Notes under the pieces: model-generated
What the model saw: the letters and a program-made list of their open reading frames with translations, nothing else
Told to the model about the DNA's origin: nothing
Database searches by the model: none
Source of the DNA: a virus
Length of the DNA: 45,809 bases
Virus record (IMG/VR): IMGVR_UViG_3300009104_000035
Location: 1 to 45,809 of that record
Direction: 5' to 3' (one strand)
Made by a program: the position numbers and the translations under genes
Shown: positions 6,280 to 44,500 of the stretch, piece after piece
How the letters are laid out: the number at the start of each line of letters is the position of its first letter
How positions within the stretch are numbered: position 1 is the first letter of the stretch

Positions 6280-7404
6280 GTGTCGGTCACATCTACATCA
6301 GTATTCGATAAAGAAGTATTCGATGGTCCTGACATATTCGATACCAAATTACAGTATTTAGTAAACATAACAGTAACAAAACAGATATTTGATGAAGCAA
6401 TATATGATAGTGCCATATTCGATACAACAAGAGGTGGGGTTATTGACTTTACAGATAGTGCCACACAATCATTACAAGCACAAAGAGGTATAACAGCCAC
6501 AAGCATATCATTATCAGATACACCAGCTAGAATACTAGCATCACTACGTTCTATAACTGCATCATCTATCAGCCTTTCAGATAGTGTGTCAAGAGTGTTA
6601 GCTGGTATAAGAAACATATCACAGTCTATATCCATTGGTGCAACCGTTGGAACCATCACACCAACTGTAAACCGTTGGATTCGAGACTTGGGTGCATTGT
6701 TTGATAGTGCAATATTTGGTGATTCAACAACATTTGACGTTGCAATTAAAACACACCCAATTACAGATTCGGTAGAAAGAAGTGATATTAACAAAGAAAC
6801 TATTACAGAACCAAGTATATCGTTATCTGATAGTGTGTCAAGGATATATAACTCAATTAGAGGATTAACCGAGAGTGTGTCATTATCTGACAGTTTATCA
6901 CGAATATTAGCATCATTACGTTCTGTTTCACAATCCACATCTTTATCTGATAGTGTTAGTGGAATTTCATCAATATTTAGAACAATTACAGAATCAACAT
7001 CAATATCCGATTCATTATCACGTATAATGGCAGCAATAAGGACCGTATCTGAATCAACATCATTATCTGATTCGGTATCTAGACTATATGGCTCATTGAG
7101 GTCAATATCACAATCCATATCATTATCCGATAGTGTATCGTCTTTAGGTAACAAATTCAGAACAATAACAAGCGTGTCTGTATCATTATCTGATAGTGTA
7201 ATTAGGTCTAGAAACCAATTTAGAACAATAACTGCCTCAACTGTTAATTTCACAGATTCAGTTGTGGGTGTGTTATTAGACTTATTAACAATAAGTAATA
7301 CTGTTTACATTCGTCAGGCTATTAAAGACACAATCTATATGAAAACAGCAGTAAATTTCACAAGATTGATACTTCAAACTATAAGGAGAACTGTAAATGT
7401 ATAA
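6280..7404 (+). CDS. Tail protein with tandem LSDSVS repeats
   Basis: This 374-residue protein begins at GTG, three bases after the preceding stop. The first 60 residues repeat an IFD pattern (VFDKEVFDGPDIFDT, then AIYDSAIFDT). From about residue 70 to 325 there are some eleven copies of a 20-21 residue repeat of the form SLSDSVSRxxxxxRxITxST, with two units interrupted by a segment carrying ALFDSAIFGD. Repeats of this length rich in Ser and Asp suggest an extended beta fibre. From memory, LSDS-type repeats occur in large surface proteins of Thaumarchaeota, so this could be a host-derived or host-mimicking adhesin. The C-terminal 50 residues (YIRQAIKDTIYMKTAVNF) are not repetitive. Confidence 0.7.
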   Translation: MSVTSTSVFDKEVFDGPDIFDTKLQYLVNITVTKQIFDEAIYDSAIFDTTRGGVIDFTDSATQSLQAQRGITATSISLSDTPARILASLRSITASSISLSDSVSRVLAGIRNISQSISIGATVGTITPTVNRWIRDLGALFDSAIFGDSTTFDVAIKTHPITDSVERSDINKETITEPSISLSDSVSRIYNSIRGLTESVSLSDSLSRILASLRSVSQSTSLSDSVSGISSIFRTITESTSISDSLSRIMAAIRTVSESTSLSDSVSRLYGSLRSISQSISLSDSVSSLGNKFRTITSVSVSLSDSVIRSRNQFRTITASTVNFTDSVVGVLLDLLTISNTVYIRQAIKDTIYMKTAVNFTRLILQTIRRTVNV

Positions 7405-7435: not shown

Positions 7436-7765
7436 ATGGCAACAGGCAAAGTTCACACAGGGGACACATATACTGACTTTCAGTTAGTAGTAAAGAAAAC
7501 AGAAACAAGTGGATCAAACGTGGCAGTAGATTTATCTGCTACATCAGTTAGAAAATTCATATTTACAGACCCATCTGGTTCAGAAACAGAAGTTACAGCA
7601 TCAATAGTAAATTCACCCGGTTCAGATGGTTTATTAAGATATATTAATAGCACACCATCACCTGTAATCAGTACAGCAGGGTTATGGAAGTATAGAGCAA
7701 AAATAACCATGACAACAGGTGGTATATTCCAATCCAATGAAGCAACATTTGAGGTGTTAGGATAA
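7436..7765 (+). CDS. Small beta-sandwich baseplate-like protein
   Basis: This 109-residue protein begins with a GDTYTDFQLVVKK strand and continues with KFIFTDPSGSETEV, a GLWKYRAKITMTTGG strand and a final ATFEVLG strand. This is the layout of the small immunoglobulin-like domain at the N-terminus of phage baseplate upper proteins (BppU type), but here it stands alone. Its own TATA box lies 24 nt upstream. Its stop overlaps the ATG of the next gene (TAATG). It sits between the fibre cluster and the capsid block, so a virion decoration or baseplate role is reasonable. Confidence 0.55.
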   Translation: MATGKVHTGDTYTDFQLVVKKTETSGSNVAVDLSATSVRKFIFTDPSGSETEVTASIVNSPGSDGLLRYINSTPSPVISTAGLWKYRAKITMTTGGIFQSNEATFEVLG

Positions 7766-10700
7766 TGCCCGGTGACCATAAAGAAAAAAAGAAGAAGAAA
7801 CAACTAGATATTAGAGTATCTAAACTAAAGGAAAGAATAGGTAAGATTAAGGGTAAACGAGTAGTAAGAGATTCAGAAGGAAGAATCATGTTACCCGGTG
7901 ACGAACCAACACAACAATCAATAAAAAACCCAGAGTTTTATGGTGAAAAAACAACAGGTATATTTGGTCAAGGTGGTAAGCAAAAGAAAGCAACAACCGA
8001 TAGAGAGTATCAAAAGAAGAAAACTGATAAACTAAATAAAAGACTAACAGGTGATTTTCTTGGTGATCCAGATAAAATGACACCAACACCTGAACAAATA
8101 GAAAAGAAGAAGTTAAGGGATAAGAAAGAAGCCGCTGCTGCAAAGAAGCAATATGAGAAAAGGCATAGAGGTGGTAGACCAAGAAAAGCAGAATTAATAG
8201 ATGTTACAAAAGAACAAAAGAATAAGAAAAAAGATAAGGAAAAACTATTAAGTAAATCAGCACATTATAATGCAGAATCCGACCCAGAAGCACCACCAAG
8301 CGATTGGTTAAAAAAATATAAAAAAGAGAGGAAGAAAACAAAGAAAGCAAAAGGCGTGGCACCAAATTACAATAATCCTAGTAAAGTGAAGAAAAACCCA
8401 CCACCACAAGGACCAAAGCCAAATGCCGAAACGCCTGAAGAAATTATGCAAAATGCAGAAATAGTATCAAGAAAGAACGACACATATATAGCTAAACTAA
8501 AGCAACGAATAGCAGAAAAAAGAAAGAAAGATTATCAGAAAATAGAAGCTGAAGAAAAAGAGGAAGCTGAAGAAGCAAGAAAACATAAACACCTTATAGA
8601 GTTTAAAGGTCATACAGGTCAATATTACAAGAGGGCTAGCTTAGTATCATCAGAAGGCAGATATGCTAAATATTGGTTATTAAACGCTAAACAAACAAAT
8701 GGTAATGGTTGGGGTGTGTCACAACAATCTATTGCCAAGAACATACGCAAGTTTGTTGGTAGACCATTAGTAGTAACAGCAAAAAGCTGGGTACCAGATT
8801 CAGAATATGGTGACCAGTTTGAACACCCATACCTACCTACTAACGATATAAATAAAGTATTAAACCATCAGGAAAAATTCAGAATAGGCAGTATTGTAGA
8901 TATTATAGAGAAAAATGGTGATTATTTTGCCAATATAGAGATAAACCAAAGGTTTGCCAATATGATTCTACCACCATTTTGTAGCCCAGCTATATTCCAA
9001 AATAACCCGGCTGAACCAGAAGGACAAATATCAGATTGGGAAGCATTACATTTGGCAGCATTAATGGAAGACCCAGCTTATGGTTCTAGAATAGCATTGT
9101 TAAGAGGTACATGTATAGGAACCAAAGACCAATGTTCAGTTCAGTTCAAGTCAGCCAAACAACAAGCCAAAATGATATGCACAAAGGGAATAAGGGAACG
9201 ACTAGCAGGTCTATTTCCTAAAGAAAAAAGACATTGGGAAGAGCAAGGATATAAGACAAAACCAGATTGGTATGGTGATACGTGTCCCGGTTGTGGTCAA
9301 GAAATGCAAGAATACCCAGCTTTATCAAGGGAAGATAATAAAACCTTAATCTGCACAGATTGTGGTAATAAAGAAGCTTTTGGTGATTTTACTAATGTTA
9401 AAGGTAAAACAGAATTAGAAGGACATGAAGAAAATAAATCAAAAAGACTTAGAGAATCAAGATTAAGAGCAAGATTAGCAGTATTCAAACCCAACCATCT
9501 TCCAAGTAAAGATAGTGTTGAAGATTTGACCGATGAGTATGAGGGAAAAGGTAAAGTTGCATTACCAAGAGTTAGTGAGGGTACTGAAACACCAAGAATT
9601 GTAAGGCATAAAGGTACAATATTACAACCGGGTAAAAGAGAAGCATATCCACTACATACAGATTATGATTTTAAGAGTGAATTTCAACATAATTTTGAGA
9701 AGAAAAGACCATTTAAAGGAGAGGCAAAAGATTGGGGTAAAAAGAAAGCTTTAAAGGAAATTGATAAAACCGAACTAGAAGATGTAGGAGATATTATGTC
9801 AATTTCAGAAAACGAAGCAAGAAAATTGGCTAAGATAAAAAAAAACGAAAAAACTAGAGTGAAAAAAGCATCAGACGATTGGTCATCAACAACAGATACT
9901 GATTTTTTTAGGAAGCCATTTAAAGCCCGAAAACTAAGTTTTGATATGACAGGATTAGATTATATGGATTCGTTACACGATAAAGCATCATGGAATGCAG
10001 GGCAAAAAGCTATGGAAAGATTCAAAAATGAATTAACACACCCATTCTCTAGAAAATACGCATATGATGTTTTGGATAATCATGCTTATAATTCAGGGTT
10101 AGCGATAGACAATAATTACCCAGACCTTGAAGGATATATAGATAAAAATGATTCTAAATCATTACAAAACTTACTAGAAGGTCATAACAAAGATATTTTA
10201 GAACACGCAGATTATAGAGCTGAAGAAGCATTTGGATTTGTTGAGGATGAACCATTACCACCTACTAGTGAAGGTGAAGCACTAGGAAGAAAATTGTTTG
10301 AACCATTTAAAAAAATGAAAGATGGTGAATATGCAAAAATACCTGATAGAAGAGGTGATATGTTAAGAACCAAAGGTATACTAAAAGACTATACAAATGA
10401 TGTATCAGGTAGTATTATGAAAGATTTTGGAACACATAGAAGAAACCAATTAGGTGCAAAAAAAAACGACATTAAGCAAAGGTTAGCAATAGGAACAAGA
10501 GTAAGCCCAACAACCAAGAGAGTTAAAAGGGTAAAGAAAGTGCTAGATTACGAACACCCATATCAAGGACCAGAGATGCCAACCACTAAACACCCTAAGA
10601 CCAACATACCAAAACTAACTGGACCACGAACAACAACAGGTAATGAACGAAGAAGAAAGGTAACTAAAAAAGAGAGAAATGCTTTAGATAGTTATATTAA

Positions 10701-12177
10701 AGATGATAAGAAAATAGACCCAAGAAAGGCTAAACTAAAGCAAAGATTAGCAGTAATTGAACAACAAAAATTAGCTGTTTCTTATAAAAGAAAGATAGAT
10801 GAAGTTATGGATTCATTTAACACTTGGGAATACAAAAAAGAAAAAACACCAAAAGGATTAAAGAAAAAAGACGATAGATTTGAACCACTTTTTACTAAAC
10901 ATAAAGGTGGTATAAGAGGTGTTAGACATCTTGGTAATAAATTCCAATATAGTGGTCATTATAAAGGAACTGGTACAACCATACCAAAAGGGGCAAAAGA
11001 CAAATTCATACCACATGTAATAATGGAAAAAACACCAAAAGGAATAATAATAGATAATTATGCTTATGATACAGCTTCAACTTACAGATATTGGAACAAA
11101 GCAGGAATAAGTACCAAACGAAAAGGAGATAAATTGTATGTGGGTGGAAAGCTATATGATTTTGAACAAGGTGGTAAAATGCTCATACCTTATAAAAATA
11201 TAACAGCCCCAATAGTACCAAAAAAGAAATATATTGGAACTGTTAGACCACGTCAACATGAAATGAGCCAACAAACGAGATTAGAAGCAACTGGTGATAT
11301 TAAAGGAATACCAGAAGATCCAACTAGAATACAGCCAAGAGACCAACGTATAGTTAATAAGATAACAGGGCTAAAAACAAAAATACCACGTAGAAAGATA
11401 TTAGGAACAGAATCACACCATTTGTTTGATTTTAGCAAATATCCACAAATGGATAAGATGAAAGGTATAGGTGTTGGAGTTAGCCATAGAACACATCAAG
11501 AAATGATGAATCCTCGTAAATTTACTGCTAAACTAAGACAAAGGTTAGGTATAATTAGAAAAAAAGGAAAACATGAACTAAAAACAAGAGATGAGAGAGA
11601 AACAATAATTGATAATTTCTATGATGGTAAGACATCTAGTCAGATTTTGCCAATATCCAAACCTTCCGAACATGGAAAAAGGTTTATGGAAGAGAAAATA
11701 AAAAGTCGTGAAAAAGATAAGAAGTTAGGAAGAGAACACAAACAATTAGATGAAGGAAAGGCAAATAAACAGTTTATAGAAACAGGTGAACCAATAAATC
11801 CTAATAAGTTTAAAGGTAAAAAACTGAAGAACAAACGAAAATACGCTAAAATATCACCATTCCCAAACCCTAAAAACTCTTTTACAATACGCTTAAAGAA
11901 AGGCTTAACTGATATAGGTTGGGAACCAAGATATGTCAATTATGCCATACAAAATCAAATAAATCAAGGTTGGGCTAAAAAATACCAAATGGGAACAGCA
12001 CAACAATTTATAAGAAAACATGACTTGAATACAATGGATATTTACGATGCAAATACAGGCGTAAACATGAAATTAGGTGAAATTGCAGATGTGTTACCCG
12101 GTACAGTAGAACCACGTTCAGGCGACACAATATTCCAAAGAACAGGGTCACCCGGTAAAACACAGTATTTTGAGTAA
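7765..12177 (+). CDS. Giant modular capsid protein with prohead-protease-like domain and repeated KLKQRLA motifs
   Basis: This 1470-residue, very basic protein lies just before the scaffold and coat genes, where tailed viruses keep the prohead protease. Residues 270-475 resemble HK97-type/DUF2213 maturation proteases: GRPLVVT, a HP pair at 354, RIGSIVDI at 373, SPAIF with Ser407, and DWEALHLA near 424-431 followed by a PAYG turn; His354 and Ser407 are the likely catalytic pair. A four-Cys zinc ribbon follows (Cys507, 510, 530, 533). Residues 1218-1244 look like a degenerate HNH site (SHHLFDFSKYP, then SHRTHQEM). A motif like AKLKQRLA occurs near residues 19, 243, 474, 566, 903, 989 and 1255, separating these modules. 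I infer a polyprotein or a set of internal virion proteins cut by the embedded protease. The first 240 residues are lysine-rich and probably disordered. Confidence 0.75.
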   Translation: MPGDHKEKKKKKQLDIRVSKLKERIGKIKGKRVVRDSEGRIMLPGDEPTQQSIKNPEFYGEKTTGIFGQGGKQKKATTDREYQKKKTDKLNKRLTGDFLGDPDKMTPTPEQIEKKKLRDKKEAAAAKKQYEKRHRGGRPRKAELIDVTKEQKNKKKDKEKLLSKSAHYNAESDPEAPPSDWLKKYKKERKKTKKAKGVAPNYNNPSKVKKNPPPQGPKPNAETPEEIMQNAEIVSRKNDTYIAKLKQRIAEKRKKDYQKIEAEEKEEAEEARKHKHLIEFKGHTGQYYKRASLVSSEGRYAKYWLLNAKQTNGNGWGVSQQSIAKNIRKFVGRPLVVTAKSWVPDSEYGDQFEHPYLPTNDINKVLNHQEKFRIGSIVDIIEKNGDYFANIEINQRFANMILPPFCSPAIFQNNPAEPEGQISDWEALHLAALMEDPAYGSRIALLRGTCIGTKDQCSVQFKSAKQQAKMICTKGIRERLAGLFPKEKRHWEEQGYKTKPDWYGDTCPGCGQEMQEYPALSREDNKTLICTDCGNKEAFGDFTNVKGKTELEGHEENKSKRLRESRLRARLAVFKPNHLPSKDSVEDLTDEYEGKGKVALPRVSEGTETPRIVRHKGTILQPGKREAYPLHTDYDFKSEFQHNFEKKRPFKGEAKDWGKKKALKEIDKTELEDVGDIMSISENEARKLAKIKKNEKTRVKKASDDWSSTTDTDFFRKPFKARKLSFDMTGLDYMDSLHDKASWNAGQKAMERFKNELTHPFSRKYAYDVLDNHAYNSGLAIDNNYPDLEGYIDKNDSKSLQNLLEGHNKDILEHADYRAEEAFGFVEDEPLPPTSEGEALGRKLFEPFKKMKDGEYAKIPDRRGDMLRTKGILKDYTNDVSGSIMKDFGTHRRNQLGAKKNDIKQRLAIGTRVSPTTKRVKRVKKVLDYEHPYQGPEMPTTKHPKTNIPKLTGPRTTTGNERRRKVTKKERNALDSYIKDDKKIDPRKAKLKQRLAVIEQQKLAVSYKRKIDEVMDSFNTWEYKKEKTPKGLKKKDDRFEPLFTKHKGGIRGVRHLGNKFQYSGHYKGTGTTIPKGAKDKFIPHVIMEKTPKGIIIDNYAYDTASTYRYWNKAGISTKRKGDKLYVGGKLYDFEQGGKMLIPYKNITAPIVPKKKYIGTVRPRQHEMSQQTRLEATGDIKGIPEDPTRIQPRDQRIVNKITGLKTKIPRRKILGTESHHLFDFSKYPQMDKMKGIGVGVSHRTHQEMMNPRKFTAKLRQRLGIIRKKGKHELKTRDERETIIDNFYDGKTSSQILPISKPSEHGKRFMEEKIKSREKDKKLGREHKQLDEGKANKQFIETGEPINPNKFKGKKLKNKRKYAKISPFPNPKNSFTIRLKKGLTDIGWEPRYVNYAIQNQINQGWAKKYQMGTAQQFIRKHDLNTMDIYDANTGVNMKLGEIADVLPGTVEPRSGDTIFQRTGSPGKTQYFE

Positions 12178-12242: not shown

Positions 12243-12836
12243 ATGACAAAACTTTCTAAAAACAACTGGACAAGTTATGCACGTAGTGTTCTTTCAGCTC
12301 AAAGCAAAATTGCTAATGAGTTGTTAGATGTTGCCGAGAGTGGTAATAATGGTGCAGTAGCAGGTCCTCAAGAAGTTGTCGATGCTATCGAAGGCATTGT
12401 TGGACAACTAGAAGAGGTACAAGCCGCTATACCAGCAGAACCATCAATGGAAGAAGCAGAAGCAGAAATACCAGTCGAAGCAGAAGCAGTTGAAGCTCCT
12501 GTCGTAGAGGAAGAAGAAGAAGAAGAGAGACCAATAGTTGCAAAACTAAAAGCTCAAGTTGCAGCACTCAACTCTAAAGTTGAAGCTCAAGAAAGAGAAA
12601 AGGTAGCTCAATCTTATTCAGAACTCTTTGACGATGTTAAAATTGCACAAGCAAAATTCGATGAAGTATTATCTTCACAAGATTCTGTTGCAACTTGGCA
12701 AAACAAAATTGCAGCGATCCAAAGTTATGCAGACGAAACAAAGGGAAACTCAACATATGTTAGCCCAAACAATACTTCAGGATTCTTATCTAGAAGTAAA
12801 GTTGCAAAGCTAGCTAGTGAGTTTAACCACCTTTAG
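12243..12836 (+). CDS. Capsid scaffold protein
   Basis: This 197-residue protein is strongly acidic between residues 60 and 97 (runs of Glu with AEAEIPVEAEAVE) and has a coiled-coil region at 98-125 (AKLKAQVAALNSKVEAQ). Small size, acidity, a coiled coil and its place before the decoration and coat genes match phage scaffolding proteins, which direct coat assembly and are removed before packaging. AKLKAQVAAL at 100-109 is a relaxed version of the KLKQRLA motif repeated in the upstream protease-containing protein, so it may be a cleavage or interaction site. Expression is probably set by the palindromic promoter just upstream. The scaffold identity rests on composition and context. Confidence 0.7.
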   Translation: MTKLSKNNWTSYARSVLSAQSKIANELLDVAESGNNGAVAGPQEVVDAIEGIVGQLEEVQAAIPAEPSMEEAEAEIPVEAEAVEAPVVEEEEEEERPIVAKLKAQVAALNSKVEAQEREKVAQSYSELFDDVKIAQAKFDEVLSSQDSVATWQNKIAAIQSYADETKGNSTYVSPNNTSGFLSRSKVAKLASEFNHL

Positions 12837-13346: not shown

Positions 13347-14510
13347 GTGAGTATGATGCAAGCTAGAATTAATAACCGAAAAGAAGATTGGGACGGAAAA
13401 CAGTTATGGCGTAACCCTGTTGATAACAGAGTTTATGCTACTGACGGTGCTCCAACATATAGCTTCGATGAAGCAAATGGTTATCCAATCTATGACTATA
13501 ACGTACACTTCGATGCAGTCAAAACAGCAAAAGACAAACTAGGTACATCCTACCAACATGATGCATTCTTAGACAGCGAATTTAAATCCGTTGCAGAAGA
13601 TTATGTATCTGATATTAAAGCCGGTGGTCGTCAAAAACTAGCAGCCTTAAGATCAAACGTAAATTCCGCAGTCGACATTGTCAACGTATGGGAAACCGTA
13701 TTAGGCAAGAGAGATCGTGTTTACGCAGGTAAGAACCTAGCAAAAGAAATTGCTGTACCAAACCTTTTGATTAGCATTGATACTGTAACCAAGTTCTCTG
13801 GTATGACAAGACTAGATGAGGGCATGAGAGCACCTCTTAAAGAATTGCCATATACAAGAGCTAACTTCACAGCACGAAAATACGGTCTCAAGTTCATAAT
13901 CCATGAAGAGGCAAGATTGAAGAACGTTCACAATGTTCTACAAGACAGCATCCAAGTGGCTTCAAACAAAATCGAACAGAGACAGTCATTCGATGTAATT
14001 AGTGAATTAGATACCAACTTGACCGCACAAGCAGCAACAGGAGTCTGGGACACATTTGTCGCAAGTACAGACCGTTCAACCAACGACCCAACCGTTGATA
14101 TTGGTATCGCAAGTCTCAATATTGAAGGATCAGGTGTAGGTGGTAAAATGAACAGAGTCGGTATGCACCAACTAACATACGCAAAATTCACAGGAAACAC
14201 ATTCCTAAGAGGCGTTGCTTCAAACGGACCAAGAGATTACTCTTATGAGCCGGGAACAAGCGAGTTAAGTGGTATACCGGGTGTAGGTCTCGTATTAGAC
14301 AATAGTGTACGACAAGGTGATGTATACTGTGTAGATACTGAATTAGAACCAACATGTGCCCTATTCCAAGGACCACAAAGAGTTGGCTCACAACACGATG
14401 AAGAGACAGGAGATGACAAATACTTTGTTATCGACTACCATCTAGCATCAATAATTCAATCAGAGACTGGTAGACAAATTACAGGTGCAATAACACCATT
14501 AGCTTGGTAG
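13347..14510 (+). CDS. Major capsid protein, HK97-fold type
   Basis: This 387-residue protein is the best coat protein candidate: correct size, directly after scaffold and decoration genes, and with an EHRTREFTA-like stretch in the form ELPYTRANFTARKYGLKF followed by a predicted long helix (QDSIQVASNKIEQRQSFDVI). The first 95 residues are charged and would act as the assembly (delta) domain; at residues 95-104 the sequence RQKLAALRSN resembles the KLKQRLA motif of the maturation-protease gene, close to where HK97 coat protein is cut (about residue 103). GTG at 13347 is the longest start; ATGs at 13353 and 13356 are alternatives. The T-rich stretch after the stop would end the operon. Confidence 0.8.
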   Translation: MSMMQARINNRKEDWDGKQLWRNPVDNRVYATDGAPTYSFDEANGYPIYDYNVHFDAVKTAKDKLGTSYQHDAFLDSEFKSVAEDYVSDIKAGGRQKLAALRSNVNSAVDIVNVWETVLGKRDRVYAGKNLAKEIAVPNLLISIDTVTKFSGMTRLDEGMRAPLKELPYTRANFTARKYGLKFIIHEEARLKNVHNVLQDSIQVASNKIEQRQSFDVISELDTNLTAQAATGVWDTFVASTDRSTNDPTVDIGIASLNIEGSGVGGKMNRVGMHQLTYAKFTGNTFLRGVASNGPRDYSYEPGTSELSGIPGVGLVLDNSVRQGDVYCVDTELEPTCALFQGPQRVGSQHDEETGDDKYFVIDYHLASIIQSETGRQITGAITPLAW

Positions 14511-14530
14511 ATTAATATCTCCAACTAACC

Positions 14531-14541
14531 CCTTTTTTTTT
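14531..14541 (+). terminator. U-rich terminator after the coat protein gene
   Basis: A CCCC run followed by an unbroken T run lies about 20 nt after the coat protein stop. Archaeal RNA polymerase stops at such U-tracts. A new TATA box follows at once. Confidence 0.5.
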
Positions 14542-14542
14542 A

Positions 14543-14550
14543 TTTATATA
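14543..14550 (+). promoter_or_regulatory. TATA box for the gene at 14572
   Basis: TTTATATA is centred 25 nt before the ATG at 14572, giving a leaderless transcript and supporting that start over the ATG at 14568, which reads only a few codons in another frame. Confidence 0.55.
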
Positions 14551-14571
14551 GTATTAAACCTAACTTTATGC

Positions 14572-14730
14572 ATGGCAGATATAGATCATGTAAGAGCAAG
14601 ATTAGCAGCAATTAAGAAAGGAAAGGAAGAGTATGCATATGAAGATTATTTCGGAAAGAAATACAAGAAGAAAAAAGGAAAGAAAGTGAATCTAAGTCGT
14701 GATGATTCATTACATCTGCAAGGAAGTTAA
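14572..14730 (+). CDS. Small basic protein starting with a KLKQRLA-like motif
   Basis: This 52-residue protein follows the coat protein and has its own TATA box. After MADIDH comes VRARLAAIKKGK, close to the RLRARLAVFKPN copy in the 1470-residue protein. A Tyr-rich acidic segment and then KKYKKKKGKK follow. The high charge suggests nucleic-acid binding. The motif at the extreme N-terminus recalls capsid-targeting sequences of T4 internal proteins, which guide small basic proteins into the prohead and are then cleaved. I infer a DNA-associated internal virion protein; no family is recognised. Confidence 0.6.
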   Translation: MADIDHVRARLAAIKKGKEEYAYEDYFGKKYKKKKGKKVNLSRDDSLHLQGS

Positions 14731-26731: not shown

Positions 26732-29141
26732 AGATATATTCAACCTTATACCAATAAGAGAAAAATCAAAAATACCATTAATATCATGGTCTGAATTTAA
26801 AAACAAAAAATATGATGGTGATGTAAAGACCACCAACTATGCAGTAATATGTGGTGAAATATCTCAATGTGTCGTTATAGATATTGATAGTCCTGAATTA
26901 TCACCAGAGATTTTTCAAGGTTGGGAGAAATTAAAGAATGAAACACTTGTTGTAAAGACTGGTTCAGGTGGGTATCATGTCTATACCAAACCAAAAGATG
27001 GTAATTATCCACCTAAGATGCCATTAACAAATGATAAAGGTCAACATATAGATATTCAATCAACCGGTAGTTATGTTTTAGGTCCCGGAAGCATACACCC
27101 AAATGGTAAACCCTATGAAATAATTAGTACCACGACTAAAGTATTAGAAATGGATATTTCAAACTTTCTTAACCATCTTAAAAAATGGGGTTTTAATACC
27201 GAGTATGGTGGGCTTAAAAGATTTGATGAAATAGCAAAAGGTGGCTTAGGTTCAGGAGAACGAAATAATAGTGCATTCAAATACGCAATAAATCTACTTG
27301 AGAATGTAAAGATGAATGCAGAAACAGCTTGGTCAGAAATGGAGAGATGGAATAAAACATTAAAACCACCAATGAATGAAAGGGAATTAAAGAATACCTT
27401 TGAATCAGCATTAAAAAAATACATGAGAAAGATTGGAACACCACAAGTTCAAGAATCAGAAATTTTAGAGAAAAAACCAATGAAAGATATTAGTGCAAAA
27501 GACGAAGGCAAGAATGTGTTATTCTCATGCTTCATATCAGCTATGGACGAACATAGAACAATAACTTTAAAACTAAACCATGAATGTCCATCATGCCATG
27601 ATACATTTCTTGCAACATCAAATGGTTTTGAAAACCCAAGAACACCACATTGTAAGAAATGCCATTTGGAAATGGTACCTATTGAGGATTCAAGGCAAAC
27701 ACAAGATATTAGAACAATATTATTACAAGAGTTAGCTGAAGATGTTAGTAATAACACACCCGCCAAAAAAACAGCCCGTGTTCATGGTGACTTGGCTAGA
27801 TTAGTCTACATATCATCAAGAAAGATTTTAGTGTTAGGCAAGTTTAGATCAGTTAAAGTAAAAGGTAAGATGGAGAATGAAATTATTATTGAAGTCGAGA
27901 AGTTTGAGTATGCCGATGAAGATATTGACCAAATGTCTAGTACCCAAGAATTACAAAAAATACAACAAGAGATAAATAGAAATGTGAATTTCTTTGATGA
28001 GTTAGTTAAATCATTTGCACCAAACATTTATGGTTATGATGATATTAAAAAATCATGTTTGTTGTTTATAGCGGGTGGTGGTAATTTAAGACGAAAAGAT
28101 GTTCATATGCTTTTAATAGGTAACCCCGGTCGTGGTAAAAGTGAGATATTGAAAGAAGTAGGGGCATTGACCAAATCATCATATGTAAACGGTAAACTAT
28201 CAAGTGGTGCAGGTTTGGCAGCAGGAATGGTTAAATTATCAACAGGTAATAGTGTAGTTCAAACAGGACCATTAACATTATACAAGTTTGTTCTAATAGA
28301 TGAATTAGATAAGATGAGAAAAGACGATAGAGCAGCATTACTAGAAAGCATGGAACAAAGAACCATATCACTACATAAAGCTGGTGTTGACATGACAGTA
28401 TCATCAAATGCTAGAATATTGGCAGCCGCTAACCCACGACTTGGTAAATGGAAAGAGGATTTAGGCTTGGAACAAAATATCAATCTAGAGTCATTTCTTT
28501 TGTCAAGATTTGACTTGATTTGGGCTATCATCAACCAAAGTAGTATGCAAAGAGCAACCGTAGCTCATCATATCATTAATCAAGCCACAAATAGTCAAGA
28601 AACATTCCTAACACATGATGAATTAAAGCGATATTTGGCATTTTGTTGTACCTTAGAACCAAAACTAACCGAATCAGCAGCAAAGCATCTTGAAGAATTT
28701 TATACAAGAACTGCTGATTTTATAGAAAGAAACAACCCAGAAACCATACCATTAGAGGAACGACAGTTAGAGGGTCTTATCAGGTTGTCAACAGCACACG
28801 CAAAACTTCATTTGAGAGATTCAGTTGGTATTGACGATATGCATGAAGCCATTAGACTTTATGAAGAATCATTACATAGTTTTGGTATAAAAACTGATGA
28901 GGGTAAATACCAAATGGACCTAAGAAGCCCGGCTGCTAATAAAGAAGAGGCATTCTGGGGTGCTGTTAACATCATATCTAATGAAAACAAACATTTCAGG
29001 CAAGATGAATTATTAATGAAACTAAAAGAATACAAATTCTTTAAAAGTATACATCAAGCAAAACAATACTTGGATAACATGATTGCAAAATCAAGAATAT
29101 TAATGAATGAAGATGGGAGCTATCGTGTCAACAAACTCTAA
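26721..29141 (+). CDS. Primase-polymerase / MCM helicase fusion, non-standard start
   Basis: The frame is open from 26715, after a stop at 26712, and encodes conserved protein from its first codons, yet has no ATG, GTG or TTG before 27018. I place the start at ATA (26721). Residues 1-140 are the bifunctional primase-polymerase domain: DIDSPE at 54-59, TGSGGYHVY ending near 88, then DIQSTGSYVLGPGS and HPNG. A zinc site (CPSC...CKKC) precedes the MCM AAA+ module with Walker A GNPGRGKS near 467, Walker B LIDELDK near 526 and the finger SRFDLIW. The C-terminus is a winged-helix-like tail. Primer synthesis and unwinding in one chain is a known archaeal plasmid and virus design. Starting at 27018 would cut off the catalytic acids. 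Confidence 0.88.
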   Translation: MLSRDIFNLIPIREKSKIPLISWSEFKNKKYDGDVKTTNYAVICGEISQCVVIDIDSPELSPEIFQGWEKLKNETLVVKTGSGGYHVYTKPKDGNYPPKMPLTNDKGQHIDIQSTGSYVLGPGSIHPNGKPYEIISTTTKVLEMDISNFLNHLKKWGFNTEYGGLKRFDEIAKGGLGSGERNNSAFKYAINLLENVKMNAETAWSEMERWNKTLKPPMNERELKNTFESALKKYMRKIGTPQVQESEILEKKPMKDISAKDEGKNVLFSCFISAMDEHRTITLKLNHECPSCHDTFLATSNGFENPRTPHCKKCHLEMVPIEDSRQTQDIRTILLQELAEDVSNNTPAKKTARVHGDLARLVYISSRKILVLGKFRSVKVKGKMENEIIIEVEKFEYADEDIDQMSSTQELQKIQQEINRNVNFFDELVKSFAPNIYGYDDIKKSCLLFIAGGGNLRRKDVHMLLIGNPGRGKSEILKEVGALTKSSYVNGKLSSGAGLAAGMVKLSTGNSVVQTGPLTLYKFVLIDELDKMRKDDRAALLESMEQRTISLHKAGVDMTVSSNARILAAANPRLGKWKEDLGLEQNINLESFLLSRFDLIWAIINQSSMQRATVAHHIINQATNSQETFLTHDELKRYLAFCCTLEPKLTESAAKHLEEFYTRTADFIERNNPETIPLEERQLEGLIRLSTAHAKLHLRDSVGIDDMHEAIRLYEESLHSFGIKTDEGKYQMDLRSPAANKEEAFWGAVNIISNENKHFRQDELLMKLKEYKFFKSIHQAKQYLDNMIAKSRILMNEDGSYRVNKL

Positions 29142-36326: not shown

Positions 36327-36833
36327 ATGCCTAATAAAATAGCGAAAAATAGCGGAAAAAGAGGCAGACCATCTAAATCTAAACAGGTTGAAATAAGAAA
36401 GAAATGTGAGGAAGAATACTTCAAATATCATTCAGCAACCTACGCAGCAGTTGTATTAGGGTTTAATCCACACACAGTAGAGAAATACTTTAGAGAGTTC
36501 CAAGAGGCAGAATTAGATGAAACAAATAGGGATTTTGTTATTAAACAACATTCAGTAAAGAACAAAGTAATAGCAAGACTAGATGAAATTATAGATAAAC
36601 TAACTAACCAATTAAATGATATAGAGTCAGTTCTAGAAGATGATATTAATGGTGAGAGCCATGATATAGCAAGATATGAAGCCATGAGGACCACAATATT
36701 AAAAACACTATCAGATATACTACAACAAAAAGCAAGTATAGAAACCACACCAACATTAGATATTACTATCGAGAAATATATAGAGGAAACATATGGACAG
36801 CATCTTAGCGAAAAAGTGGCAAAACCTCAATAG
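36327..36833 (+). CDS. terS: Putative small terminase subunit
   Basis: This 168-residue protein has a basic N-terminus (KRGRPSKSKQVEIRKKC), a helix-turn-helix-like segment (YFKYHSATYAAVVLGFNPHTVEKYF) and a long coiled coil (ARLDEIIDKLTNQLNDIESVL). That order, DNA-binding domain then oligomerising helices, and its overlap with the large terminase gene fit the small terminase, which recognises viral DNA and loads the packaging motor. Named by context and layout. Confidence 0.65.
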   Translation: MPNKIAKNSGKRGRPSKSKQVEIRKKCEEEYFKYHSATYAAVVLGFNPHTVEKYFREFQEAELDETNRDFVIKQHSVKNKVIARLDEIIDKLTNQLNDIESVLEDDINGESHDIARYEAMRTTILKTLSDILQQKASIETTPTLDITIEKYIEETYGQHLSEKVAKPQ

Positions 36834-37698
36834 AACAGGTGTGCAAAAAGCACAATTAATCGATTTGGAAATAGAAACAAAAAACATAAAGATACCAAAG
36901 GATTTTGAAGAATTTAATGAGATGTTAGGGTTGCCTATACATCCGGGAACAGGTAAGAAAACGCCTATATTTGACTACCAAATTGATTATTTTAAAGCAT
37001 GGCAAAAACATCATAAACTCATACTAAACAAGTCTAGAAAGATAGGTGCAACCGAAACAGCATTACGTATTATAGCGTATAATTGCGTATCAGGTAGATA
37101 TTCTGGGCACCGGGTAATGATAGTAGCTGGTAACAAGCAAGAGGTGGCTAATAGATTTATTCAAAGGTTCAAGTCATTATTTCTTAAAGGTTTTACCGAT
37201 TTAGATGGGGTATTCCATGAATATTCTGATATTATAACAAAGGAAGATAGTAAATCATGCATTGTGAATAACACATATGTTCAGGCATACCCGGCTAACG
37301 AATCAGTAAGAGGTGAGGAAAACGTCAAATGTGTGTTCATGTCAGAATGTGCCTTTATCAATCTCATTGATGATACCAAAGTATATAATGCCTTACACCC
37401 AAACGTAGCAAATATTAGCGATGCTGATTTTATCATGGAAAGCACACCTAATGGCAAACGTGGGTTCTTTTGGACCAACTATGATGCTAATTCAGAATAT
37501 CATAAATTGGACCAACCATACACAGTATCATTAGGTAAGTTATTAGATGAAGTGTTCATTAAAAAAGAAAAGGAAAACCCAAAGATTGACTTTGAACAGG
37601 AATATTGTGGCAAGTTTACAACATCGTTAAGTAGTGCATTCAAGGAAGATGAGATTATATTTGAAGAGAAAGATATAAATTATTATGATAACTTGTAA
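36793..37698 (+). CDS. terL: Large terminase, ATPase half only
   Basis: This 301-residue protein is a terminase motor domain: FDYQIDYFKAWQKHHKLILN leads to the Walker A-like SRKIGATET (81-89), and Walker B with the catalytic acid is VKCVFMSECAF (Glu185). STPNGKRGFFWTNY is the coupling motif. It stops soon after EQEYCGKFTTSLSSAF, the usual end of the ATPase region, and lacks the RNase H-like nuclease domain. That domain is encoded separately at 39799. Full-length large terminases have about 450-600 residues; this and the nuclease protein together have 495. The two must work as a complex. Confidence 0.85.
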   Translation: MDSILAKKWQNLNRTGVQKAQLIDLEIETKNIKIPKDFEEFNEMLGLPIHPGTGKKTPIFDYQIDYFKAWQKHHKLILNKSRKIGATETALRIIAYNCVSGRYSGHRVMIVAGNKQEVANRFIQRFKSLFLKGFTDLDGVFHEYSDIITKEDSKSCIVNNTYVQAYPANESVRGEENVKCVFMSECAFINLIDDTKVYNALHPNVANISDADFIMESTPNGKRGFFWTNYDANSEYHKLDQPYTVSLGKLLDEVFIKKEKENPKIDFEQEYCGKFTTSLSSAFKEDEIIFEEKDINYYDNL

Positions 37699-38611: not shown

Positions 38612-39802
38612 ATGGGTAGAGTAAACGAATTAAAGCAAAGATTGGCAGCAGTATCACCAAACTGGAATGAAATATTAACAAAAAATACAACTAGACCAAT
38701 AATAAAAGGTGGTATGGATTATAGAGCAGGATTTGTTAGTGAAGCAGGTGATTATTACGAAGCATATCCAGAACATGAACCTTTTTTAAAAGATATTATA
38801 ACAAAACATGGTGATAAAAAGTTAATTAATACATATATGCCAAAAGGCAAAAAACTGTATGAAGGTGATATTTATAACAAATGGATGGAAGACACAGGAA
38901 TGATACGGACACGTTTTGACTCGTTTGCACCTGCAATACACACAGAAACAGACCCAACCGATGCACAAAGAAAAACAATAGGTAAATTTTTAAAAGATTC
39001 TAATATAGACAAACATGATATTGTTTTTGAATATGGGAAAGATAATTTTACTGGTGTTGAAGATATATTTGATTATAGCGACCCAGCTTCATCATCAGGG
39101 CATGATTCAATACGAGATAGAATACGAAGCAGACATTCTAAACTAAAGCAAAGACTACAGAAAGTGGCATATAAAGGAATGGTGAATAGAAGAGGTCCTC
39201 AAAACTATGAAGAAGCTTTGAAAGGTTCTCATTCAGACACAATGGCAGATACAATTCAAAAAGGTTTTAATAAAGAAGAAACACGTAAAAAAATATTAGA
39301 TAGAATAGACCCTACTGAATTACCACACAAACAAGAAGTAACGTGTGGTGCATCATCAGAACATTGTTTAGAAGATTGGGAAAATATAGTCGAAGATGGT
39401 AATATAGGTGGTATTGAAAAAATTAAAGGTGTTGGGGGTATATATACAGGACCGGGTGCAGAACATAGTTTAAATAGATTAAATCTAAAATCTAAAAAGA
39501 AAGAAGTTGGTCACGCATGGTTGGAATTACCTGATAAAACAATAATAGATGCTTCAGCAGGACAATTCATAAACCCAAAACATGAACCACTAAAACAAAG
39601 ACAAAGATTCAGAATTATTCCAAAAGAATCAGGACTGTATAAATATTATAAAAAAGACCCATTATTGACACACCATCTACATATGGATGATCCTGAACGA
39701 CAAGTAAGACGTAGACTTCGTAAGCTGGGTATTGACCCATTTGACCCATTTCCAAGTAGAAAAGCTAAACTAAAGCAAAGACTATCGAGGTTACAACAAT
39801 GA
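38612..39802 (+). CDS. Two-module protein bracketed by KLKQRL motifs, with a papain-like segment
   Basis: This 396-residue protein carries the motif of the 1470-residue capsid protein at three places: NELKQRLAAV (5-14), SKLKQRLQKV (176-185) and AKLKQRLSRLQQ at the extreme C-terminus (385-396). The first module (15-175) is unrecognised. The second (186-384) has CGASSEHCLEDW, then VGHAWLELPDKTIIDASAGQF: the Cys...HAW...IIDA order of papain-like cysteine enzymes, close to HAW.DAT.QF families. Exact motif sharing implies that it is handled like the capsid protein, perhaps cut into two internal virion proteins. It sits between the terminase halves; its stop overlaps the nuclease start (ATGA). Confidence 0.65.
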   Translation: MGRVNELKQRLAAVSPNWNEILTKNTTRPIIKGGMDYRAGFVSEAGDYYEAYPEHEPFLKDIITKHGDKKLINTYMPKGKKLYEGDIYNKWMEDTGMIRTRFDSFAPAIHTETDPTDAQRKTIGKFLKDSNIDKHDIVFEYGKDNFTGVEDIFDYSDPASSSGHDSIRDRIRSRHSKLKQRLQKVAYKGMVNRRGPQNYEEALKGSHSDTMADTIQKGFNKEETRKKILDRIDPTELPHKQEVTCGASSEHCLEDWENIVEDGNIGGIEKIKGVGGIYTGPGAEHSLNRLNLKSKKKEVGHAWLELPDKTIIDASAGQFINPKHEPLKQRQRFRIIPKESGLYKYYKKDPLLTHHLHMDDPERQVRRRLRKLGIDPFDPFPSRKAKLKQRLSRLQQ

Positions 39803-40383
39803 AAACACCAAAGTTTGGTGGATTGGACCTAGCACAAAGGGTAGATAATTCAGCTCTAGTTATTTTAAAACTAAACGATAACAAACTAGAACAGATTGGT
39901 CAAAAAACATGGTCACACATAGACTATGAAAAGGTATTCAATGACGTATCAAAGATTAATGAGATTGAGAAAGGATTACATAGAATATCATATGATAGGA
40001 CCGGTGTTGGAGATGCTGTTGCTAAACTTATTAATCCTGATATAAAATCAATATTTCGTCCTGTTGTATTATCAGCACCAAAGAAGTTCGAATTAATATC
40101 ATTAATGAAAGGTCTGTTCAATAGGAACAAACTAATAATACATGATAGGGATTTATTTAGAGAGGTAACAGAACAAGAGATAGTAAAGTCAGATGCGGGT
40201 AATATCCTTTATAGACACCCACAAGGTTTTCACGATGATAGGTTCTGGGCTTTAGCTCTAGCCTGTGATGCAGCATCATATTATATTAATGGAATGCCAA
40301 AAGCATCTTCAGCAGCGGCACCAAAAAGACCAATGATTCTAGAAAGTCTAGTTACACAGGAGCTAAATAAATTACTAAAATAA
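39799..40383 (+). CDS. Large terminase, nuclease half as a separate gene
   Basis: This 194-residue protein is the RNase H-like nuclease domain of a large terminase. GGLDLAQRVDNSALVIL is the first strand with its acid (Asp11), SYDRTGVGDAV the second motif, and FHDDRFWALALACDA the third, with the metal-binding Asp. In normal terminases it follows the ATPase in one chain. Here it begins with the domain itself (MKTPKFGGLDLA), without linker. It cuts concatemers at the start and end of packaging, held by the ATPase protein at 36793. Confidence 0.82.
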   Translation: MKTPKFGGLDLAQRVDNSALVILKLNDNKLEQIGQKTWSHIDYEKVFNDVSKINEIEKGLHRISYDRTGVGDAVAKLINPDIKSIFRPVVLSAPKKFELISLMKGLFNRNKLIIHDRDLFREVTEQEIVKSDAGNILYRHPQGFHDDRFWALALACDAASYYINGMPKASSAAAPKRPMILESLVTQELNKLLK

Positions 40384-42676: not shown

Positions 42677-43495
42677 TTAACTATTACATTGGACCAAAGT
42701 ATTATTTAAAAACAAACAACTCTTTGGTATTACTCTAGGATTATATTTATAAAATCCATCATCAGCATATAGTTGTCTTATCATTTCCATATCGTTTGGT
42801 CTTATCGTTAATTCTAATTCTTCATCGAATGCTTCAATAGTTGGAACCATAGCTGAATAATCATACATGGTTTTTCCACCATCTATACCATCACCAATAA
42901 AATAATGCCCTAATCCAAGACCATGACCAAATTCATGTAAAACAACATTCCTTATAGTATTTAAAGGCATAGGTACTAATTCCTTACCATATCCTACACT
43001 TCCCTCTGTGCCTGATAATACTATCTCAACAGTTGGTTTAAATTGATTGAGATAAATATTAATAAACATGAATTTATGTTTCGAATAACTAAAATCAATA
43101 CTTGTTGTTCCTAATGAATCACTACCTGAATAATACTCATAATTAATCAAAATATTACAAAAGGGATAATCACTTACATATTTATTAGCGTGTGATTCCC
43201 ACTCTATTGTACCATAAATTGGCAAAAATAATAAATGTGATTCATTCTCTAATGCCTCTTTCCACTCATAAATAGCCTCATAGGTTACTCTTTCTATATT
43301 TTCCCAATCATCAGTTATTTCAGGGTTTGCCTCAAATACACAAACAACCGGTGTTGTTTGATGGTTTAAGCGTAATGTTTCATATACATCAGATCGTTGT
43401 TCACCAAACGCAAAATCCATACCAAGCCATAATAATGCCGAAAGCATGGTAATCCATAATATCTTCTCTATACGATCCATGTGTATTCTATTCAT
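42677..43495 (-). CDS. Secreted metzincin-type zinc protease
   Basis: This 272-residue protein, on the minus strand, has an N-terminal hydrophobic segment (ILWITMLSALLWLGMDFAFG) that looks like a signal peptide or anchor. The catalytic site is VLHEFGHGLGLGHYF (HExxHxxGxxH, around residues 187-201), and TMYDYSAM supplies the Met-turn; DMEMIRQLYADDG is the matrixin-type end. Thaumarchaea have a protein S-layer and no peptidoglycan, so a secreted protease could open the envelope at release or entry. It is divergent from the holin-like gene, with a shared TATA region. By TATA spacing the ATG at 43480 may be the real start. Confidence 0.82.
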   Translation of the reverse strand: MNRIHMDRIEKILWITMLSALLWLGMDFAFGEQRSDVYETLRLNHQTTPVVCVFEANPEITDDWENIERVTYEAIYEWKEALENESHLLFLPIYGTIEWESHANKYVSDYPFCNILINYEYYSGSDSLGTTSIDFSYSKHKFMFINIYLNQFKPTVEIVLSGTEGSVGYGKELVPMPLNTIRNVVLHEFGHGLGLGHYFIGDGIDGGKTMYDYSAMVPTIEAFDEELELTIRPNDMEMIRQLYADDGFYKYNPRVIPKSCLFLNNTLVQCNS

Positions 43496-43810: not shown

Positions 43811-44500
43811 ATGACATTATGTGTTGTAAGAGAGGACCCAGAACATGGCTTACAGTTCCAAGAGGAACAAACTGAATGGAGACACAAGTGGGATAAAAAT
43901 ACCATTTATTATTCAATGGAATATAATGATGAATTACCTCTCATACCAAAAAACAAAATGAGAAAGGCAATAAACTTAGCGATGTCAACTTGGAATTTCG
44001 AGATACCTACCAAAATAAAATCAAAATGGAGAGATTTTGAACAAGCAGATATTCAAATAAGATTCAGAAAAGCATCAGATGATAACATTTTTAGAGATAG
44101 ACCAACTGTTCTAGCATATGCATATTTCCCAAAAACATCATTACAAGGAGATATTGTGTTCAATCTTGATTTTATATGGTCCCTAGATGATAATGGAATA
44201 AAAGCTTCAGAAGCTATAAGATTAGGTATAATAGAAAATGCATCAAACCCTGATAGTAAACTAAAGACATATAATATCATTCATACCATGATACATGAGA
44301 TAGGGCATAGTTTAGGGCTAAAACATGATGTGGATAATAATTCAACAGATGTTATGGACCCATATTATGACGGTAAGGTGTTGGATTTATCAGCAAGGGA
44401 TTTATATAGAATAAGACTCAAATATGGTACAAGAGTGTGGAATTGGGCTATGTATAAGAGAGTAAAAAGATGGTTACATCGTAGAAAGAGAAATCTCTAA
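43811..44500 (+). CDS. Metzincin-type zinc protease without signal peptide
   Basis: This 229-residue protein carries HTMIHEIGHSLGLKHD near residues 158-173 (HExxHxxGxxH) and STDVMDPYY as Met-turn, with a matrixin-like lead: YSMEYNDELPLIPKNKMRKA, AMSTWNFEIPTKIK and ADIQIRFRK. It ends in a very basic tail (KRVKRWLHRRKRNL). No signal peptide is visible, so export would need the adjacent holin-like protein, or the protease could ride in the virion. It starts six bases after the holin-like stop, so the two are one operon. A second metzincin lies on the opposite strand. Confidence 0.85.
   Translation: MTLCVVREDPEHGLQFQEEQTEWRHKWDKNTIYYSMEYNDELPLIPKNKMRKAINLAMSTWNFEIPTKIKSKWRDFEQADIQIRFRKASDDNIFRDRPTVLAYAYFPKTSLQGDIVFNLDFIWSLDDNGIKASEAIRLGIIENASNPDSKLKTYNIIHTMIHEIGHSLGLKHDVDNNSTDVMDPYYDGKVLDLSARDLYRIRLKYGTRVWNWAMYKRVKRWLHRRKRNL

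Follow-up and report, generated by a model that had tools for sequence, protein, structure and literature searches.

What does a short peptide do that recurs along a single viral protein, between unrelated segments and on both sides of a protease-like domain? The question is raised by a 1470-aa open reading frame (7765..12177, plus strand) in IMG/VR record IMGVR_UViG_3300009104_000035, of which the whole stretch of 45,809 nt was analysed (hereafter the window). An initial annotation had read this ORF as a viral polyprotein that is split at the peptide beside a prohead-type protease.

Regarding the identity of the virus, the window encodes homologues of Rad51/RadA and MCM as well as Terminase_6N and Terminase_6C domains, which suggests a tailed virus with archaeal-type replication and probably a virus of archaea; the sample identifiers point to a marine origin. 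Genome contigs searched with the protease and portal alignments gave no match, and with no host genome found, the term archaeal is one that we infer. The product of 27018-29141 combines an MCM helicase with primase-related parts (PriCT_1, weak Prim-Pol), giving this tailed virus a replication protein of archaeal type. At 6280-7404 repeated ITxSxSLSDSVSR-like units are found, probably belonging to a tail fibre or surface repeat protein. Two zincin metallopeptidases (Matrixin/M66-like) are located between the portal and tail genes, at 42677-43495 on the minus and 43811-44500 on the plus strand, and ORFs with similar placement are present in the related loci L027 and L031.

A repeated peptide in a 1470-residue protein

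We found seven cores of the pattern [LI][KR]xR[LI][AG] in the ORF, 1-2 residues or less from the positions of the seven copies described in the initial annotation. On the plus strand they start at residue 21 (LKERIG, 7825..7842), 245 (LKQRIA, 8497..8514), 476 (IRERLA, 9190..9207), 567 (LRARLA, 9463..9480), 903 (IKQRLA, 10471..10488), 991 (LKQRLA, 10735..10752) and 1257 (LRQRLG, 11533..11550), with the second and third copies on the N-terminal and C-terminal side, respectively, of the protease segment. Shuffled versions of the ORF with the same composition contained 0.03 motifs on average and at most 2 (5000 shuffles). When the strict pattern was applied to a six-frame translation of the whole window, its occurrence among long ORFs was confined to 7765-12177 and to a second ORF at 38612-39802, which had been missed in the initial annotation. 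Low-complexity chance as the source of the motifs is ruled out by the shuffles and by profile-score controls. An assembly or frame artefact is ruled out as well, since ORFs of the same length lie in the same place in two independent contigs: L002 and L004 carry polyproteins of ~1450 aa at the corresponding position, upstream of the scaffold, decoration and major coat protein genes, with seven and eight strong motif copies, respectively, at other positions and with different cassettes. The Pag-Yong1 polyvalent protein has one isolated motif-like match; as three other homologues were without it, it was taken as chance.

The motif is conserved as a protein sequence. Across the copies Leu is encoded by CTA, TTA, CTC, CTT, CTG and TTG, Arg by AGA, AGG and CGA, and Ala by all four of its codons, while the residues are kept and the K/R and L/I swaps are conservative. 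Varying synonymous codons behind constant residues argue for selection on the peptide and are not expected of a pure DNA junction. Several copies also have near-identical DNA in common, e.g. AAACTAAAGCAAAGA, which could aid recombination.

Cassette exchange among related viruses

A search of 2.9 million viral contigs (IMG/VR) with the coat protein yielded four relatives (95, 90, 83 and 51% identity), and a search with the portal alignment yielded 17 loci, some on shared contigs. The portal homologue of G003 (L012, G003:C1:19000-20628) has one TGA within the match, which may be due to a sequencing error, a frame issue or recoding. In the relative G004 the genes are separate and the motif-like stretches weak. 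Used as a single query, the 1470-aa polyprotein found no relatives in the viral contigs, because the cassettes differ. In the phage collection the coat and portal proteins had no match, and the polyprotein was matched solely around its zinc ribbon, by small stretches of hypothetical proteins.

All chains were cut at the motif and the resulting pieces were compared with each other. The zinc ribbon proposed in the initial annotation (9280..9372; all features of this ORF are on the plus strand) is supported by phrog_2945 (E 1e-12) and by PF08271, the latter at E 3.7e-4 and thus below the Pfam cut-off. In cassette W_4 (9481..10488) the first 120 aa resemble L004_5, which is motif-bounded in L004 (64% over 121 aa). 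The basic cassette W_5 (10489..10752, 88 aa) matches L019a_5 at 80% over 79 aa, which in G003 forms the end of a different multi-motif protein (L019:17122-17373). Cassette W_6 (10753..11550) is related to L002_7 (29% over 201 aa, E 2e-16); it had been described as HNH-like, a description for which we found no profile match. The last 107 aa of W_7 (11551..12174) correspond to L004_8 (72% identity), an internal piece with the motif on both sides.

The initial annotation had suggested an alignment of homologues, and in it the motif is retained in the relatives, with flanks that are unrelated or shuffled. Homology breakpoints are located ≤15 residues from a motif in 18 of 44 cases, compared to 6.3 expected and with 0 of 10,000 random placements as high, the 44 being not fully independent as several stem from related comparisons. 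Many homology ends lie far from any motif, and some boundaries in the window have no intact motif (the joints inside W_4 and W_7), which indicates that boundaries also decay or that other exchanges occur.

The second motif-containing ORF (38612..39802, plus strand) encodes 396 aa made up of two cassettes, A (38648-39160) and B (39161-39787), with the motif at residues 7, 178 and 387: LKQRLA at the N-terminus (38630..38647), LKQRLQ between the cassettes (39143..39160) and LKQRLS four residues before the stop (39770..39787), all on the plus strand. Cassette A (W38_1, 171 aa) is the same as L002_4 (95% over 170/171 aa), so one piece is found in a free gene in the window and motif-bounded inside the polyprotein of L002. 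Cassette B (W38_2) corresponds to L026_1 (80%); L026 is without A, and the joint falls in the motif. In different viruses the genes for the terminase nuclease and the portal are closely preceded by genes for free cargo proteins of 107 to 396 residues, whose middles come in seven arrangements (A+B, B, C, D, E, F and G); in some viruses the cargo gene is absent. Their N-termini read M[SG]RV[DN]ELKQRL, with variants in L019 and L025, and their C-termini KLKQRLSRLQQ-stop (AKKLKQRLARIYES in L019), which places the C-terminal motif 4-5 residues from the stop. Written as degenerate patterns, the terminal signatures were found in eight contigs each among the 2.9 million, nine combined, and as 9 of the 9 were also found by the portal search, the signature is restricted to this virus group.

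Since the free cargo genes are tagged at both ends, the motif probably does not serve as a cut site only and is likely to act in targeting too; 4-5 residues before a stop it would be of little use as a pure cut site. The core of the initial idea, a viral polyprotein divided by the motif beside a prohead-type protease, is supported by the relatives.

Regarding the content of the cassettes, most of them had no match in profile searches, and PDB sequence searches with three cassettes or neighboring ORFs gave no matches. For L002 cassette 5 the matches are phrog_3170 and portions of multidomain phage proteins of very large size, one of which is annotated as a large polyvalent protein; for L004 cassette 9 the match is a small gene that lies near the terminal repeat in Brevibacillus phage Sundance. 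Both would fit injected or early-acting proteins. Zinc ribbon aside, none of the window cassettes matches described polyvalent proteins as the L002 cassette does. Cassette B contains CGASSEHCL...GHAWLEL...IIDASAGQF (within 39161-39787), by look a transglutaminase-like Cys/His/Asp set, with no convincing profile or PDB match. The large terminase is split over the ORFs 36793-37698 (Terminase_6N) and 39799-40383 (Terminase_6C), which are separated by ~2 kb that hold the cargo gene as well as small genes; L027 and other relatives likewise have a split terminase, with different content in between.

The protease-like domain and the coat protein

The protease-like domain comprises residues 276-472 of the polyprotein (8590..9180, plus strand) and has three relatives at 88, 78 and 49% identity. 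His354 and Ser407, the latter within FCSPAI, are invariant in all four versions (4/4), and the distance between them is 53, compared to 55 for H85/S140 of T4 gp21, which we take to be the catalytic pair of that enzyme. The domain is flanked by motif copies in the window, in L002 and in L004. In L005 (G004), the relative at the greatest distance, it is a separate 328-aa gene between motif-like stretches, followed by other small genes and then by a scaffold-like gene. The gene order protease ORF, scaffold-like, decoration-like and coat is found in the window, L002, L004 and L005. That the protease is separate in L005 means that the polyprotein may be a fusion of a once-separate protease-and-cargo locus; change would then have run from the separate locus to the fused chain. 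Beside the separate protease in G004, a FRGTN...-type stretch (L005:7057-7791) appears ADP-ribosyltransferase-like by eye, with no convincing profile or PDB match.

Comparison of the domain with Pfam, PHROGs, a PDB sequence profile and, by hhalign, HK97 gp4 matched no known protease family. Fold searches with a low-confidence model (pLDDT 52) gave no match at E 0.001, with T4 gp21, herpesvirus assemblin and prohead proteases recurrent near the top. Taken together, the invariant His/Ser with their spacing, the gene position and the recurrent fold matches make a prohead-type serine protease likely. The initial annotation had called the domain HK97/DUF2213-like; its conserved character with His354 and Ser407 was confirmed, while membership in the HK97/DUF2213 group is supported by no sequence profile.

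Downstream of the polyprotein, 12243..12836 (plus strand) encodes an acidic protein whose position among the genes suggests a scaffold role, with the weak motif-like stretch VAKLKAQVAALN (approximately 12546-12581; score 12.8, relatives 9.9-12.9). The major coat protein (13347..14510, plus strand) was assigned by phrog_1650, major head protein (E 5e-7; residues 175-331 aligned to profile positions 96-249 of 300). A score profile built solely from the polyprotein and cargo copies of the motif, with the coat site excluded, finds KAGGRQKLAALR in the coat protein with a score of 16.4; in 50 shuffles of four loci, four matches of at least 16 were obtained. The motif-like GRQKLAAL comprises coat residues 94-101 (13626..13649, plus strand) and scores 16.4 in the window and in L015, 13.1 in L017 and 14.9 in L020. 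Residues Q96, A99, A100 and L101 are invariant in alignment A2; compared to the motif, the site has no KL, and Q takes the place of the L ahead of AA in L004 and L005.

The coat protein has 387 aa, compared to 385 for HK97 gp5, and after cleavage near residue 103, ~284 aa would remain. By alignment offset the start of phrog_1650 (300 positions) falls near coat residue 79. As the structure model of the coat failed (pLDDT 31), the boundary of the N-terminal domain is taken from the length and the profile offset only. The related site lies close to where a cleavable N-terminal domain would be expected to end, and this is the best sign, though an indirect one, that the motif may be a processing site. 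Directly after the coat gene a small basic ORF (14503-14727 / 14572..14730, plus strand, ~52 aa) starts with the motif-like HVRARLAAIKK, whose score of 10.5 is, taken alone, in the chance range; after the coat gene of L017, TLDLKSRLAKLR scores 18.8 (L017:2391-2627).

A proposed head-cargo system and its known counterparts

Our preferred reading, to which we give a probability of about two in three, is a head-cargo system in which the motif, carried on an exchangeable polyprotein, would both target cargo to the capsid and mark the sites at which the embedded protease cuts. A late gene would give rise to one long cargo chain that includes the prohead-type serine protease, with further cargo supplied from separate genes, and each cargo unit would be flanked by a 10-12 residue peptide xKLKQRLAxI. 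The peptide would probably first recruit the chain into the prohead core and would then be cut by the protease, the likeliest position being QRL[AG] or directly behind it. Placed between two motif copies, the protease would free itself, and it would trim the N-terminal domain of the coat at the related site. The released cargo is predicted to be packed and later ejected into the host, and viruses would swap cassettes via the shared peptide. Counting against this reading are the negative profile comparisons and non-significant fold matches of the protease domain, the motif copies so close to the stop of free genes, the deviations of the coat site from the motif, the homology ends and boundaries that lie away from an intact motif, and G004 with its separate genes and weak motif-like stretches. 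A broader claim, to which we incline only by a little, is that of a universal pack-and-release tag in marine, probably archaeal tailed viruses, such that any flanked protein, be it free or a polyprotein segment, is loaded and freed; payload cassettes could then be traded by recombination at the tag with the packaging machinery unchanged.

Alternatively, the motif could be an uncut docking helix which tethers the chains to scaffold, coat or DNA in the head, with the polyprotein remaining whole. Such a helix would account for the motif at both ends of the free genes, including the copy 4-5 residues before the stop, and being basic the motif could form an amphipathic helix. We nevertheless consider this reading unlikely, given that the protease domain stands between motif copies in three viruses, that a related site is found close to where the coat is expected to be trimmed, and that trimming at two ends has a precedent in T4 Alt and gp21, which are also processed at the C-terminus (PMC9026906). 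Less probable still is that the chain is a large structural or polyvalent protein of the ordinary sort, in which basic helical repeats act as spacers and the protease domain is a mere passenger. This explanation is disfavoured; the lysine-rich composition of the chain and the existence of polyvalent proteins lacking such a motif would fit it, but the exact cassette boundaries, the free-gene versions and the lineage-restricted terminal signatures argue against it. Least favoured, and in our view highly improbable, is a motif that serves mainly as a DNA-level recombination junction with the peptide as a by-product of cassette hopping, since in spite of the near-identical DNA of several copies and the exchange that happens there, L, R and A codons vary widely while residues are kept or conservatively swapped, and a related peptide is present in the coat protein, where no exchange is seen.

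If the head-cargo reading is true, these tailed viruses would naturally possess a plug-in format for payloads, and a double-stranded DNA virus would be seen to use a polyprotein whose joints are marked by a defined peptide. Every tag-flanked ORF or segment would be a candidate effector, and the tag would provide a sequence handle to list proteins possibly injected by the viruses of a marine group that is abundant and hard to culture. Head cargo of the polyvalent type would extend to viruses with archaeal-type replication genes, where it is reported to be scarce. The tag itself would be a testable and possibly reusable signal for protein loading.

In the open-access literature we found no paper on a repeated joint peptide or on cassette exchange of this kind. 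HK97 resembles the window in the near-identical length of its coat protein, a putative ~100-residue N-terminal domain to remove and a protease encoded upstream. Profile comparison, however, showed no significant sequence relation of the protease and coat to HK97 gp4 and gp5 (hhalign for the coat alignment against gp5), and to our knowledge HK97 is without a cargo polyprotein.

In T4, internal proteins are directed to the core by propeptides of 10-19 residues, which gp21 removes (PMC9026906). As in the viruses described here, IPI, IPII, IPIII and Alt are unrelated, often basic cargo proteins with a common short terminal peptide, and the cargo differs between related viruses. Targeting by the peptide followed by its removal through the prohead protease, as reported for T4 (PMC9026906), is what we propose by analogy. 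T4 cargo, however, consists of separate proteins with mostly N-terminal tags that are cut after Glu, whereas here a KLKQRLA-like tag stands at either end of the cargo as well as between fused cassettes, and the chain includes the protease. For many head proteins of the giant phage SPN3US, AXE is the site after which gp245 cuts (PMC10052503); maturation of coat, portal, internal and ejection proteins, and of the protease itself, is the work of a single enzyme at a short shared motif, as may be the case here; unlike in the window, its substrates are separate proteins and there is no cargo polyprotein.

The closest described class is that of the polyvalent proteins of phages and conjugative elements. 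In the sections of Iyer et al. (2017, PMC5512222) drawn on here, these are multidomain proteins predicted to be injected with the DNA, which the authors compare to polyproteins and report to be scarce in archaea; for processing, some include a peptidase of the assemblin-like or zincin type, the assemblin-like one always C-terminal, and a repeated boundary peptide is not described in these sections. The initial annotation needs correction here, given that injected multidomain proteins with a fused assemblin-like peptidase are already published for phages in the same sections. In contrast to that class, the window has its protease inside the chain and a short peptide at the joints, and the peptide also accompanies cassettes that are encoded as free genes. 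What the two have in common is that several disparate domains are joined in one chain of a portal-terminase virus. One L002 cassette is shared with the protein annotated as a large polyvalent protein.
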